A program made the translations under genes and the position numbers. 64,000 nt of DNA, taken from contig NC_003552.1 of NCBI RefSeq assembly GCF_000007345.1, positions 2,108,001-2,172,000 on the forward strand, written 5' to 3'. Under the pieces are notes generated by a model. The model ran no database searches, was not told the DNA's origin, and saw only the letters and a list, made by a program, of their open reading frames with translations. The DNA comes from Methanosarcina acetivorans C2A. Its GTDB lineage: Archaea > Halobacteriota > Methanosarcinia > Methanosarcinales > Methanosarcinaceae. This document shows positions 9,587 through 54,453 of this stretch, piece after piece. The stretch's first letter is position 1. The number at the start of each line of letters is the position of its first letter.

Positions 9587-9880
9587 TATGGAAAGGGATC
9601 TTTCCTATCCTTTTCCAGGTTATCCTCGATAGTTTTTTGCGGGAACTATCGAGCTCTACTATGCAAAGTCCTGGAAATCTGCTTTTCTCGTTTTTCAGGA
9701 TCTTTCTGTCCATGGGATTCAATCGTCTTTTCTGCTGTATTAGACCATTGATCGTCGAATGGGTCCCTCATAATCCTTGCTTGCCGTATATTGATCGAAA
9801 TGTCTTGTAGGGCGGGGCAGGATTTATTTACCGGTCGCACTTTTGGACTCTACTTCCCTTCGACATATTTGTAATTTTTT
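9587..9880 (+). ncRNA. Candidate structured RNA with three covarying hairpins, copy A
   Basis: Three hairpins: H1 CTCGATAGTT/AACTATCGAG at 9625-9653, with the conserved loop part GCGGG; H2 at 9665-9705, TCCTGGAAA/TTTTCAGGA plus AAAG/CTTT; H3 TCAATCGTCT/AGACCATTGA at 9719-9751. Compared with copy B the stems differ by paired changes: T-A to C-G in H1, G-C to A-T and T-A to C-G in H3, and several in H2. Most wobble pairs (G-U) favour the plus strand. A conserved GGACTCYACTTCCCTTCGAC motif precedes T6 at 9875-9880. Not matched to any family I know. It could instead be part of a leftward 5' leader. Confidence 0.5.
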
Positions 9881-9884
9881 GCCA

Positions 9885-9900
9885 TTTATATAAAGTTATT
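9885..9900. promoter_or_regulatory. Near-symmetric TATA box
   Basis: gccatttatataaagtta is conserved in both copies of the unit (20446-20462 in copy B). Being nearly palindromic it could drive the rightward small ORF, the leftward DUF3344 gene, or both. Confidence 0.4.
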
Positions 9901-10056
9901 TCATAGATTTGACATATTTTTGTATGATTTTTTCATATTATATAATAAATATTTTAACTAATTTCTTACAAATCTGTATAAAAAAGTATCAAAAGTTTTA
10001 AATTTATTTTGTTTTTATTCGATATTGGTTGGCAGTGTTTCGTTAACTTAAACCTC

Positions 10057-10182
10057 ATGTCTATATCTCTATATCAGAAGTATCCTGTTTCCGACATTGA
10101 TATTTCCGAATATCATTACAGGGTTTTCATTGTAATGTTTACTACAATGTTAATTATGGAAGTTGTATTTCATTATTTCTAA
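10057..10182 (+). CDS. Small membrane protein, copy A
   Basis: Encodes 41 residues: MSISLYQKYPVSDIDISEYH, then YRVFIVMFTTMLIMEVVFHYF, with one hydrophobic segment at about residues 22-41. The copy at 20620..20763 encodes the same protein with a six-residue extension. Their differences are silent or conservative in most codons (CAG/CAA, CCT/CCG, Ile/Val, Asp/Gly). The frame is also open upstream to a TTG at 10009 in both copies. The ribosome site is weak. Function unknown; the conservation argues mildly for a real peptide. Confidence 0.4.
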   Translation: MSISLYQKYPVSDIDISEYHYRVFIVMFTTMLIMEVVFHYF

Positions 10183-10880
10183 ATAAATATAATAATTAAG
10201 TTAGGGTGTACCGACTGTTTGTGGTTATATTCCGGAAATCAGGAGATTTTACAACAGTAAATAAATATATATTACTATTTAATACTATAAATATTATAAT
10301 TCATCATATTTATTTATATTATTGTCATCTTTATTAATATTTTATGCTAATAAATAAACAAAAATATCAAATATAATGGAAGCATACTTTATCCCTCTTT
10401 TTAATTTAGTTTAACTGAGAATACAAAATAATGGAGTATGATAATCAAAGTCGCGCTGGCGCACTTCGCTGCAAATGTTGTTGAAGATCAACTCTCAATC
10501 CTTTTTAATTCACTTATTGTAGAATATATTGTATCGATACTTGGCACCAAAACGAGATGGTAGGTAATCTGACCATAGCCATGGCTAAAACTGTTCAATT
10601 CCAACGTATATCACATCCAGTCTATAGGCGGCTGGTACCACCTATGGCCACGGTGCTGAAAAAAGCTCATTTTACAAAAAAAGTAATGATTTAGATATTT
10701 AATGAGAAAAACGAAGAGGCGAGGGTTCACTTCATCCCCGACCTAAACAGGCTGTACGATAATTACCTTCGGTAATAAATGAATTCCTTTTTTTTGATTT
10801 AAAGGGCTTATTTGCTTTCTTTTTCGCATTTTTCTATTACTATTAATAATTGTCAGACAGCCTCTAAAGGTGGGGTATTA
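10183..10880. other. Intergenic part of the duplicated unit
   Basis: No gene seen. The AT-rich start is followed by a conserved block at 10430-10690 with self-complementary pieces (AGCCATGGCT; GGTACC paired with GGTGCT at about 10635-10662, which is GGCACC/GGTGCC in copy B). On the plus strand the copy A differences are G-U wobbles, so this block may also be transcribed rightward. Confidence 0.35.
10762..10776 (+). terminator. Hairpin ATTACC-ttc-GGTAAT followed by T-run
   Basis: Six-base stem, then gaattcc and eight T. Identical in copy B at 21326-21340. It could end rightward transcripts carrying the small ORF. Confidence 0.4.
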
Positions 10881-11498
10881 GTAAGTAGCCCAGGGGAATT
10901 TCACCCCCAAGCCCTCTCAGATCCGTACGTGAATCTCTTGATTCATACGGCTCCCATTATCCAGCCATAAAGCCTTGTTTTGTCCATTGGTTCCTCCCTT
11001 GAAAACAAGGTTGACCGCAGTTCAAAACTGGATAATACAATCCCTTCGCTCCATGCCCATTACAGGCACTTCATCACTAACGAATTGTTCCGCCCCTGTT
11101 CGTCTCATCGATATTTTTGTCCTTGCGGGTCCACCGCTTGGAGTTTTCTCTTAACATCGATGAGCAGGTTCCCACGTTCCACAGAAAAGCCCGAGTTAAG
11201 TTCCCGCCACCTATATACCGATCACCATCTGGTCAGTAAACAGAGTATCTTCTAGACTTATCCCAGGTTAGTCACGCAACCTGGTTTTGATGACATCATC
11301 GCGTTTTCGATACGTCTTCAGTGGTTCATTTCATTCGGCTCCTTAACCCACACCTGACGAAGTCATAGCCTCGCCTTTTCCCATAATGCTCACTACCGTG
11401 GCTTTTGACCAAAGCAGCTTATGGGTGGTTTGGAATCACTTCCTGTAAAGCGAGTCCGAGGGGTCTACCCTCATCTTTTCTGCAGCCTCGTGGCACAC
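10881..11498 (-). ncRNA. ORF-less group II intron
   Basis: About 618 bases on the minus strand. The 5' end reads GTGTGCC (the GUGYG rule). The 34-base domain V is at 10920-10953: GAGCCGTA paired with TACGGATC, a two-base AC bulge and a four-base terminal loop. It is followed by a domain VI-like GGGG/CCCC hairpin and an end reading CTACTTAC. No reverse-transcriptase frame is present; only a short MDKTRLYGWIMG remnant precedes domain V. The empty site survives in copy B near 21440-21460. ORF-less group II introns are known in Methanosarcina and need a maturase from elsewhere. Exact 3' end uncertain by one or two bases. Confidence 0.85.
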
Positions 11499-11657
11499 CG
11501 GGACCCTCTGCGCTCCCCTTGTAATAAATATTTATGAGAAAATTCTAAGTTTAACTTACAAATCGATCAGTGAATTATTTATCAGCAAATATTAAAAAAT
11601 CTATAACCTACCATTCACTAATAAAAAAGGATTAAAATGAATTAAACTAGTGTCGAG

Positions 11658-12281
11658 TCAATCCTCAATTGTCGGATAAAGACGTGACAATTTTATTCTT
11701 GCATCATCTGTTGTGAATTGCCAATTAACCTTTGAATTTTTGTTGTTTCTGTAATTTTGCCATGCGCATACTTCTTTCCTAACAAGCTCGATGTTATCCA
11801 TTCTTCTTTTTAAACATTGACCTGTAAGTACGTTCAGTTCAATCTCTGCCATGTTCAACCAGCTTCCATGTTTTGGTGTGTACACGAACTCAAATCTGTC
11901 CCACAGCGCCTTTGCTTTGGGTGGTGGAAATGTTTCGTAGAGAGATCCAGGTATATGCGTGTTTAAATTGTCCATTACTAACGTAATTTTATCTGCATTT
12001 TCATGTTGACCTTCTATTTCTTCCAGGAAATAAGCCCATTCTCGCTTTGTTTTTCTTTCAGTAATCTTTACCATTCTTTTCCCTGTCAATGGTTCACAAG
12101 CAAGGAATACATTGCACACCCCATTTCGCTCATATTCATAATCGTACCTGGATGGCTTTCCTGGTGAGCAGGGAATAGGAATCCTGGTTTCTGCAATCAG
12201 TTGTTTTGGGGATTCGTCCATACATACAACAGGATTTCGTGGATCAAACGGACGTTTATAAACATCCAGAACCATTTCCAT
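11658..12281 (-). CDS. IS630 transposase, catalytic part (DDE)
   Basis: Second reading frame of the transposase, 207 residues from the first ATG, but homologous sequence continues upstream in the same frame (WQKKQWVIPPEQNSS) to the A7 run. It carries the DDE_3 triad: Asp in VVCMDES, Asp in LVMDNLNTH, and Glu in HGSWLNMAEIE. It is in the +1 frame relative to the upstream helix-turn-helix frame, so a full protein needs a +1 shift or loss of one A in the transcript. Otherwise the copy is a frameshifted pseudogene. All catalytic residues look intact. Confidence 0.85.
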   Translation of the reverse strand: MEMVLDVYKRPFDPRNPVVCMDESPKQLIAETRIPIPCSPGKPSRYDYEYERNGVCNVFLACEPLTGKRMVKITERKTKREWAYFLEEIEGQHENADKITLVMDNLNTHIPGSLYETFPPPKAKALWDRFEFVYTPKHGSWLNMAEIELNVLTGQCLKRRMDNIELVRKEVCAWQNYRNNKNSKVNWQFTTDDARIKLSRLYPTIED

Positions 12282-12342: not shown

Positions 12343-12789
12343 TTAATTTCGTTTTTTTAAAGTACGCCGTACTGTTTCGTGAGAAATATCCTCGAAATAG
12401 CCAAGTTCTACAGCCTTATCGGCTAATAATCTCAAAGACCATCTTGCAAAACCTTCAGGGGGTTGACTGCAACTAAGGGCGACTAAATGGGCTTCAGCGT
12501 CACCATCAACTTTTTTAGTATAAATGCGATCGCTTTCTTTCCCGTTGAGGGCAACTTCAAGTCCTTCTTCAACAAATCGCTTCTTAACACGGTCAATTTT
12601 TTTCATACTAATATTCAGGACACGTGAGATTTCTTCATTGGTTGAATGGGTAACATTCAATTCACTTTTATCGCAATTAAGCAAGATCAGAGCATTGAGA
12701 ATTTGTTGAGAGTTATGTTTTCCCTTTGAAGCAAGTTCACAAAGAGATCTACGTTCATCTTCGGTAAGTGTCACAGTATATCTAATCAT
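12343..12789 (-). CDS. IS630 transposase, N-terminal helix-turn-helix part
   Basis: Encodes 148 residues with the homeodomain-like helix-turn-helix of IS630 transposases (LCELASKGKHNSQQ, NEEISRVLNISMKKIDRVKK) and a second DNA-binding unit (WSLRLLADKAVELGYF). It ends at TAA just after TTA AAA AAA CGA AAT. The A7 run at 12352-12358 is where the catalytic frame could be joined. Confidence 0.85.
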   Translation of the reverse strand: MIRYTVTLTEDERRSLCELASKGKHNSQQILNALILLNCDKSELNVTHSTNEEISRVLNISMKKIDRVKKRFVEEGLEVALNGKESDRIYTKKVDGDAEAHLVALSCSQPPEGFARWSLRLLADKAVELGYFEDISHETVRRTLKKRN

Positions 12790-20151: not shown

Positions 20152-20443
20152 GCCTGGAAATAGATTATTTTCATCTCTCTCCAAGTCATCCTCGACGGTT
20201 TTATTGTGGGAACTGTCGGACGGTAATGTGCAAGAGTCTGGGTCGATCCTTATTCTTTCCAGACTCTTTCTGTCCAATAATTCAATCACCTTTTCTGGAT
20301 ACCTCAGGTGACTGATCGTCGGAGATCTCTCTATATACTGGTTTACCTGATACTGGCCAGCGGACTTTGCAGGTCAGGTTCCGAATTTTTTACCTGTCGT
20401 AAATTTTGGACTCCACTTCCCTTCGACATAATAGTAATTTTTT
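20152..20443 (+). ncRNA. Candidate structured RNA with three covarying hairpins, copy B
   Basis: H1 CTCGACGGTT/AACTGTCGGA at 20191-20220 (with G-U pairs); H2 AAGAGTCTGG/CCAGACTCTT at 20232-20268, perfect; H3 TCAATCACCT/AGGTGACTGA at 20282-20315. The loop part GTGGG and the GGACTCYACTTCCCTTCGAC motif are shared with copy A. Primary sequence between stems has diverged far more than the pairing. T6 at 20438-20443. Confidence 0.5.
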
Positions 20444-20619
20444 GCCATTTATATAAAGTTATTTCACAGATTTAACGTATTTTTGTATAATTTTTTCATA
20501 TTATATAATAAATATTTTAACTAATTTCTTACAAACAAGTATAAAAATGTATCAAAAGTTTTAAATTTGGTTTGTTTTTATTCGCTCTTGGTTGGCAGTG
20601 TTTCGTTAACTTAAGCCTC

Positions 20620-20763
20620 ATGTCTATATCTCTATATCAAAAGTATCCGGTTTCCGGCATTGATGTTTCCGAATATCATTACAGGGTTTTCATTGTAATG
20701 TTTACTACAATGTTAATTATGGAAGTTTTATTTTATTATTTTTTTAATAAATATAATAATTAA
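20620..20763 (+). CDS. Small membrane protein, copy B
   Basis: Encodes 47 residues (MSISLYQKYPVSGIDVSEYH, then a hydrophobic segment YRVFIVMFTTMLIMEVLFYYF and tail FNKYNN). The frame is also open to a TTG at 20572. It is the paralogue of 10057..10182, which ends six residues earlier. No recognised family and a weak ribosome site. Confidence 0.4.
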   Translation: MSISLYQKYPVSGIDVSEYHYRVFIVMFTTMLIMEVLFYYFFNKYNN

Positions 20764-21325
20764 GTTGGAGTATATCGACTGTTTGCGGTTATATTCCGAA
20801 AATCAGGAGATCTTACAACAGTAAATAAATATATATTACTATTTAATCATATAAATATTATAATTAATAATATTTAATCATACTATTATCATTTTTATTT
20901 ATATTTAGTATTCAAAAATAAACAAAAATATCAAATAGAATGGAAGCATACTGTATACCTCTTTTTAATTCAGTTTAACTGAGAATACAAAATAATGGAG
21001 TATGATAACCAAAATTACGCTGGCGCACTCCGCTGCAAATGTTATTGAAGATCAACTCACAATCCTTTTTAATTCACTTATTGTAGAATATATTGTATCG
21101 ATACTTTGGCACCAAAACGGGATGGTAGGTAATCTGACCATAGCCATGGCTAAAACTGTTCAATTCCAATAAATATCACATCCAGGCTATAGGCAGCTGG
21201 CACCACCTATGGCCATGGTGCCAAAAAAAGCTCATTTTACAAAAAAAGTAATGATTTAGATATTTAATGAGAAAAACGAAGAGGCGAGGGTTCACTTAAT
21301 CCCCACCTAAACAGGCTGTACGATA

Positions 21326-21340
21326 ATTACCTTCGGTAAT
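21326..21340 (+). terminator. Hairpin ATTACC-ttc-GGTAAT followed by T-run
   Basis: Identical to 10762-10776; followed by gaattcc and eight T. Confidence 0.4.
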
Positions 21341-21467
21341 AAATGAATTCCTTTTTTTTGATTTCAAAGGGCTTATTTGCTTTCTTTTTAGCACTTTTTT
21401 ATTACTATCAATAATTGTCGGACAGCCTCAAAAGGTCGGGGTATTCGTGACCCTCAGCGCTCCCATT

Positions 21468-21504
21468 GCAATAAAGGGCGTATGTGAAAAATGGCAAAAC
21501 CTCA
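21468..21504. repeat. Short dispersed repeat, copy 2
   Basis: Matches 18074-18110. Both lie just downstream of the stop codon of a minus-strand surface gene. Confidence 0.5.
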
Positions 21505-43996: not shown

Positions 43997-44170
43997 TATG
44001 TCTACCTAAAAAACACCTAAATAGACACGCCTCCTAAATTTGTGCATAGCATACAACTCCAGGAATCCCTCACCTGTAAGGTAGGCAGGTGGGGAATCCA
44101 GGATTCGAGGGTAGAGCAAGTAAAAAATCTGATCCCTATTTCAATAATCATTTATCAATCTTTTCTTCAT
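43997..44170 (+). ncRNA. Candidate small RNA, hairpin family copy 3
   Basis: Hairpin CCTCACCTG/CAGGTGGGG at 44068-44094, preceded by acacgCCTCCTaaat and followed by agagcaag-aaaaaatctg. Relative to copies 1 and 2 one G-U pair has become A-U and one U-A has become U-G. The ATG at the presumed start is closed after three codons. The 3' end is approximate, in a T-rich stretch. Confidence 0.45.
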
Positions 44171-54287: not shown

Positions 54288-54453
54288 TATGTCTATAGAA
54301 CAGACATGGATAAGTGAAAAGATCTACAAAATCTGTGGATGGCACCTGCAATGCTTGGAATTCCTCACCTGTGATATATGGGCAGGTGGGGAGCCATAGG
54401 TGCGAGGAAAAACCAGAAAAAATCTGGTATTCTACTCATTACTTAACTTTTTT
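54288..54453 (+). ncRNA. Candidate small RNA, hairpin family copy 4
   Basis: Hairpin CCTCACCTG/CAGGTGGGG at 54363-54391, extendable to 11 pairs, then a second hairpin ACCAG/CTGGT and T6 at 54448-54453. The 5' part differs from the other copies and lacks CCTCCT. The ATG at 54289 opens 35 codons, but this frame is absent at the other loci. Confidence 0.45.

Follow-up and report, generated by a model that had tools for sequence, protein, structure and literature searches.

ORF-less group II introns of Methanosarcina acetivorans were reportedly described by Dai and Zimmerly in 2003, and RmInt1, a group II intron to which we return below, carries a reverse transcriptase (RT). In bacteria, ORF-less introns nearly always coexist with related RT-bearing ones, and nested introns have been reported in M. 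acetivorans (PMC4424553). In Thermosynechococcus elongatus, three introns occupy a conserved site in ISEL1, an element of the IS200 family (PMC2882425), and the IStrons are group I introns paired with IS605- or IS607-type elements (PMC4227781). A paper on halophiles discusses group IIB introns together with an IS200/605 element, both as users of single-stranded DNA, with no insertion of one in the other in the part available to us (PMC7923331), and IS200 goes unmentioned in a survey that covers archaeal introns (PMC8919778). Both ORF-less Methanosarcina introns and introns within an IS200-family element, in Thermosynechococcus, are already known. On the target described below, the left end of such an element in Methanosarcina, we found no paper in the open literature covered, a scope outside which the primary intron papers lie, and we make no claim that it is unpublished.

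The window, the whole stretch of DNA analyzed here, comprises 64,000 nucleotides of M. acetivorans, bases 2108001–2172000 of a single contig of 5,751,492 bases. It contains an ORF-less group II intron of 619 nt, which runs on the minus strand from 11498 to 10880 (Table 1). An initial annotation, made from the letters alone, had proposed an ORF-less group II intron at 10881–11498; the 5′ end stands, with GTGTG at 11498 as the GUGYG start it had named, but the 3′ end lies one base further, and the intron is on the minus strand. Both halves of the intron are matched in Rfam, the first by RF01999 and the second by RF00029 at 10955–10877 on the minus strand (48.3 bits, E 2e-6, cut-off 40), and the 34-base domain V with a domain VI hairpin next to it is found as described in that annotation. 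By eye, a candidate branch A lies in domain VI, 7 nt from the intron end. Folding of the 619-nt RNA, which had been proposed as a check, gives a six-domain structure of −218.8 kcal/mol (z −5.7; none of 20 shuffled sequences as low), in which a large domain I and a short domain IV without an RT are predicted together with domains V and VI.

Table 1. Features of the intron and of the two host element copies in the window (window positions)
Feature	Position	Strand	Basis
ORF-less group II intron, GTGTG...CTACTTACT	10880..11498	-	Rfam, fold and filled/empty alignment
Domain I part, RF01999 (group-II-D1D4-2)	11352..11472	-	Rfam, 104.3 bits (E 2e-20, cut-off 36)
EBS1 candidate UAUGAC, domain I hairpin loop	11362..11367	-	fold and pairing
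Short domain IV stem, no ORF (approximate limits)	10955..11038	-	fold and comparison with relatives
Domain V, 34 nt	10920..10953	-	Rfam and alignment
Domain VI (approximate limits) and 3′ splice site	10880..10917	-	Rfam and consensus fold
IS left end (5′ arm of hairpin), preceded by TTTATTAC; 5′ exon	11499..11528	-	
IBS1 GTCCCG, last 6 nt of 5′ exon; 4/6 pairs	11499..11504	-	
Remaining decayed IS200-type element, forming the 3′ exon; 92% to empty copy	9821..10879	-	
~115-bp element in hairpin loop, AGGCTGT...ACAGCCT ends	10749..10863	.	limits by eye
IS200 TnpA relic, N-terminal third, frameshifted, internal stops	10465..10604	-	tblastn with L219 TnpA
Second decayed IS200-type copy without intron; junction 21445/21446	20383..21475	-	
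TnpA relic of empty copy	21032..21169	-	80% over 46 aa to intact L219 TnpA

Comparison with related copies extends this picture. The consensus of six aligned full copies, comprising three from M. acetivorans, the inner (nested) copy of the genome G012 and two from G042, contains 191 pairs, of which 14 show one or more pair-preserving double changes; MAFFT misplaced the start of the M. acetivorans rows, which was read by hand. A further compensatory change, also found by hand, lies in the basal helix, which is CCACG/CGTGG in M. acetivorans versus CCAAG/CTTGG in the relatives. No RT lies inside the intron: the genome's 16 RVT_1 matches all lie elsewhere, and the intron's sole ORF of at least 80 aa is a 91-aa frame on the opposite strand. 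Adjoining the intron is an IS630-family transposase in two separate frames (11658–12281 and 12343–12789, minus strand). Elsewhere in the window, on the plus strand, the archaeal small RNA family sRNA41 (RF02905) is matched twice, at 44000–44112 (48.6 bits) and at 54291–54409 (45.2 bits), its cut-off being 45.

The flanks of the intron belong to a mobile element. A unit at 20.0–21.4 kb resembling these flanks had been read as a duplicate of the locus, and as a segmental duplication this does not survive: both units carry a broken relic of the N-terminal third of an IS200 TnpA together with a left-end hairpin, and they are therefore, by their sequence, a pair of decayed copies of an IS200-type insertion sequence, the second of which has an upstream flank of its own. 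The TnpA relic of the empty copy scores 21.8 bits against Y1_Tnp, under the cut-off of 23. An IS200 TnpA relic also lies downstream of the sister intron copy 4030k (L002), and intact TnpA proteins of 153 and 155 aa are encoded downstream of the same left end in G042 and G040 (L219 and L214; PF01797 E 6e-38 and 5e-36; NCBIfam IS200). The features of the IS200 group, a Y1 TnpA (in L219 and L214) and a left-end hairpin, are thus present, with the window copies being relics. We also considered whether the repeated motif is the 3′ end of a TnpB omega-RNA, at an IS605 right end, and rejected this reading: the motif lies instead upstream of an IS200 tnpA. A pattern scan of six tnpB-matching loci (L077–L082, out of eight) returned two short partial matches only.

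In all five copies folded, the left end forms a two-stem hairpin. The intron enters this structure in the unpaired stretch on the 5′ side, above the lower stem (GGGTCAC/GTGAACCC) and below the upper one, after GTCACG, and it is oriented like tnpA. The 5′ exon is GGAGCGCRGAGGGTC in all three full M. acetivorans copies, and the 3′ exon reads AATRCCC in all four ORF-less copies of that genome, including L004, which is without the 5′ part. The ~115-bp element in the hairpin loop of the filled unit has a counterpart in the empty one (about 21315–21430, AGGCTGTCCGACAATTA-type ends) and so predates the divergence of the two IS copies. AGGCTGT occurs within 60 nt downstream in 15 of 106 left ends, suggestive of a transposon with hairpin loops as its target.

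The empty copy defines the insertion point to the base. The filled and empty units in the window align over 1,067 bp on the 3′ side (92%) and 30 bp on the 5′ side (87%), and, given an intron at 10880–11498, the alignment blocks abut without gain or loss at an empty site between 21445 and 21446, which is position 115|116 of the compared stretch. The claim that an empty junction is preserved at the neighboring unit is therefore borne out on full alignment. The accompanying claim of a clean before-and-after pair holds for the junction but not for the locus, because the empty unit is an IS copy with a different upstream flank, making the pair paralogous. A cleaner pair is found in G042, where the filled L240 and the empty L312 share flanks of 31 bp (100%) and 253 bp (98.8%) around a junction at 263|264. 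A second pair in the same genome, L241 and L323 (junction 286|287), shares 26 bp (100%) and 37 bp (94.6%), so that their sister relation is based on 63 bp. In G023, L275 and L296 are paralogous stretches with the IS at the same position and the intron in one only; their flanks are 84% identical over 229 bp, and we rejected them as an allelic before-and-after pair.

All three pairs give intron ends GTGTG...TACC (TACT in the window), one base beyond the expected GTGYG...AY: the GUGUG 5′ end matches GUGYG, and the empty sites place the 3′ end at ACC/ACU. Among 55 related 3′ ends from other prokaryotes, 53 have C as the extra base and 2 have T. In the RT-bearing relatives described below, the same extra-base reading restores, by eye, a sensible FADDFIVTA frame in the interrupted gene.

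Allowing at most two mismatches, the left-end pattern is found in 29 of 30 genomes of the genus, with no match to a reversed control in any of the 30. The intron 5′ junction (0–1 mismatch) occurs at 15 places in four of these genomes, whose 106 left ends divide into 15 filled, 87 empty and 4 other, the last being three with a different sequence without AATACCC and one that is broken. M. acetivorans (G000) has 10 left ends (3 filled, 5 empty, 2 other), G042 has 27 (2 filled, 23 empty, 2 other), G012 has 23 (1 filled, 22 empty) and G023 has 46 (9 filled, 37 empty); G023 is a fragmented assembly in which the filled copies are visible for the first 66–129 nt of the intron only. Three junction matches with three mismatches, in G041, G044 and G003, were set aside as chance, with no left end around them and two such matches in the reversed control. 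The left-end places in G042 are strand-biased, 22 forward and 5 reverse. Three loci in G000 and G042 (L353, L355 and L356) have a different shared sequence, starting KGGAGTGAAGAGGGTCACGGCTTGAAACG, after TTTATTAC, and this sequence may be another IS200-type left end.

Within M. acetivorans, the full ORF-less copies are the window intron, 4030k (97%) and 4143k (96%), with a 5′-truncated copy at 2673k. G042 has, in addition, four partial copies (L195–L198) with neither junction pattern. Two further copies depart from the rule. In G012, L098 (C167:2341–3656) is a twintron, an intron within its own copy at about position 137, in an IS200 left end. In G003, L099 (C34:47741–48325) is an ORF-less relative (84%) that lies not in an IS but at the RT-gene site GATGATT, and whose domain V is without part of its 3′ strand.

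From these sequence comparisons, we consider it probable that an ORF-less intron lineage has, as its homing target, the left-end hairpin of an IS200-type element that Methanosarcina carries in multiple copies. The intron is found at one exact point of the hairpin, in IS copies that differ in left-end variant and have intron-free sisters; the G003 copy and the inner G012 copy lower our confidence in this reading. The alternative that intron and element move jointly as a composite, as a group II analog of an IStron, finds some encouragement in the position of the intron between the two stems, because of which a transposase might still recognize the end. The nine filled left ends of G023 have nine different flanks up to TTATTAC, as joint movement would produce, and two of them share a variant, TA...CGGAGG, that is absent from the 37 empty copies there; the other side of the same count is that five filled G023 copies have the variant of 32 empty ones, and the contigs end 66–129 nt into the intron, too early to decide for or against joint movement in that genome. 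Similarly, in M. acetivorans both GTCATG left ends are filled and none of the five empty ones has GTCATG, but the hairpin variant in the 3′ exon differs between these two filled copies. The window pair, moreover, shares the IS and its loop insertion but not the intron, and in G042 the left-end variant differs between the two filled copies, both of which have an empty sister of their own variant (for the second copy, judged on 63 bp). From this last observation, the intron moved independently of the IS at least in G042, firmly for L240 and less so for L241, and we regard a composite as very unlikely.

Homing by reverse splicing must also be weighed against a spread of copies by DNA recombination or gene conversion between IS elements. 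The three full M. acetivorans copies have all lost a hairpin, about 40 nt long, close to the 5′ end, and all have A facing the triad G of domain V, so that introns already altered occupy three separate places; two of the three also have the 5′ exon GTCATG, as would be expected if sequence had been exchanged between elements. Conversion would, however, tend to bring flanking IS sequence with it, whereas the 3′ exons differ among copies and the junctions are base-exact in three pairs. We judge this route very unlikely.

If the intron homes to the hairpin, its domain I should recognize the 5′ exon. In M. acetivorans, the EBS1 candidate of all three full copies is UAUGAC, and two of these copies have IBS1 GUCAUG; the two G042 copies and the outer copy of G012 have UGUGAC with IBS1 GUCACG. 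Pairing is 6/6 (one G-U) in five copies, these last three and the two M. acetivorans sisters, and EBS1/IBS1 covaries between species with one compensatory change. Pairing to the flanks, on which the initial annotation had staked its case, is thus complete in these five, but the window copy reaches 4/6, and there are exceptions elsewhere. The same EBS1 loop recurs in the inner G012 copy beside a 5′ exon, GGTGGTT, that does not fit it, the G003 copy has loop UGUGAC at its equally non-fitting RT-gene site, and in the RT-bearing relatives (L005, L006, L007, L100 and L207) the EBS1-like loop is, by eye, unpaired with their own 5′ exon GATGAYT. IBS1 can also pair elsewhere in the intron, at one or two places in every one of the five matching copies; a rival loop, CGUGAC in another hairpin, pairs in four of the five and in G042 does so without any G-U. 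Because of this rival and of the non-fitting inner G012, G003 and RT-bearing copies, the EBS1-IBS1 assignment is likely but not secured. A by-eye look for EBS2/IBS2 found none. One of the alignments was used without its rows for L004 and for the empty site, whose orientations were mixed.

A search of the genome for a related intron with an intact RT, suggested alongside the initial annotation, yields three copies, ∼83% identical to the window intron over the shared RNA. Their RT ORF sits in the domain IV region, just before domain V; the three ORFs are 96–100% alike, and the one read encodes 433 aa, is annotated as group II RT/maturase and matches just two Pfam families at E 0.001, RVT_1 and the maturase domain GIIM. 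These RT-bearing introns are inserted in the FADD motif of other RT genes, which is the nested pattern noted for this species (PMC4424553). G023 has one RT that is 92% identical to the M. acetivorans cognate RT, whereas no cognate RT was found in G012 or G042, where the RTs present are 28–32% identical. ORF-less and related RT-bearing introns thus occur together in the window genome and in G023, and not in G012 or G042. Because the cognate RT is seen only in M. acetivorans and G023, a model in which the RT acts in trans looks to fit two of the four genomes, and the G012 and G042 introns look stranded.

In the homing model, a precursor RNA reading into the IS would be spliced with the aid of a maturase/RT that the RT-bearing relatives provide in trans. 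The lariat would then find new IS left ends, partly via EBS1-IBS1 pairing and probably while the hairpin strand is single-stranded. It would reverse-splice into the new site and be copied by the same RT.

Whether the window copy still takes part in such a cycle is a separate matter. It is probably aging and may now splice poorly, its splicing being doubtful because of the 4/6 IBS1 pairs and a mismatch in domain V, where the GGAUC 3′ strand places an A opposite what we take to be the triad G; the G012 and G042 copies have U there. We put about even weight on its being a dead relic of a past insertion that no longer splices, which would be compatible with homing. Consistent with a relic, the IBS1 is the poorly fitting GTCCCG, the 5′ hairpin is lost, the last intron base is T where five other aligned copies have C, and the host IS is decayed. 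The predicted fold is nevertheless intact, and the domain V change and the hairpin loss are common to copies 97–99% identical elsewhere; as these altered copies are at other places, neither change can have stopped spread at once.

The window case illustrates well how one genetic parasite, itself of a known kind, can live within another. Beyond the earlier reading of the locus, it identifies the host as an IS200-type transposon and the recurrence of the intron at its left-end hairpin in other species. It provides a natural set of filled and empty sites in an archaeal genus, including one clean pair (98.8–100% flanks) in a single-contig genome, and homing of an archaeal ORF-less intron is therefore testable: the RT-bearing relative as mobilizer in trans, the need for single-stranded hairpin DNA, and whether the transposon is silenced or spared. 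It also carries a caution, in that a neighboring “empty site” can be a paralogous transposon copy, not the ancestral locus.

The window intron is very probably among those already catalogued for M. acetivorans, which are alike in being archaeal and ORF-less, with RT-bearing kin in the same genome and nesting in RT ORFs; the RT-bearing relatives differ from it in targeting RT genes. A parallel in target is offered by the F4 introns of T. elongatus, likewise group II introns at a conserved site of an IS200-family element, in a cyanobacterium where the protein of another intron both splices and mobilizes the ORF-less F3 (PMC2882425). RmInt1 in ISRm2011-2 of Sinorhizobium meliloti is likewise a group II intron in a multi-copy IS, where poor splicing limits the IS, but the element is of the IS630-Tc1 family and the intron lies in the transposase-coding region rather than in an end hairpin (PMC4238363). 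IStrons share the association of a ribozyme intron with an IS200/IS605-family element, but they are group I introns that move with the IS, whereas here a group II intron lies inside the left end and many copies are intron-free (PMC4227781). Both ends of the Methanosarcina intron lie inside the IS left end, and intron-free sister copies of the IS exist, which sets it apart from an IStron. An unlikely extension is that of a two-layer parasite, in which the intron would recognize the same single-stranded left-end hairpin that the transposase uses and land between its stems, leaving both intact, and might either tax the transposon or travel along with it, in the manner of an archaeal, group II version of the IStrons.
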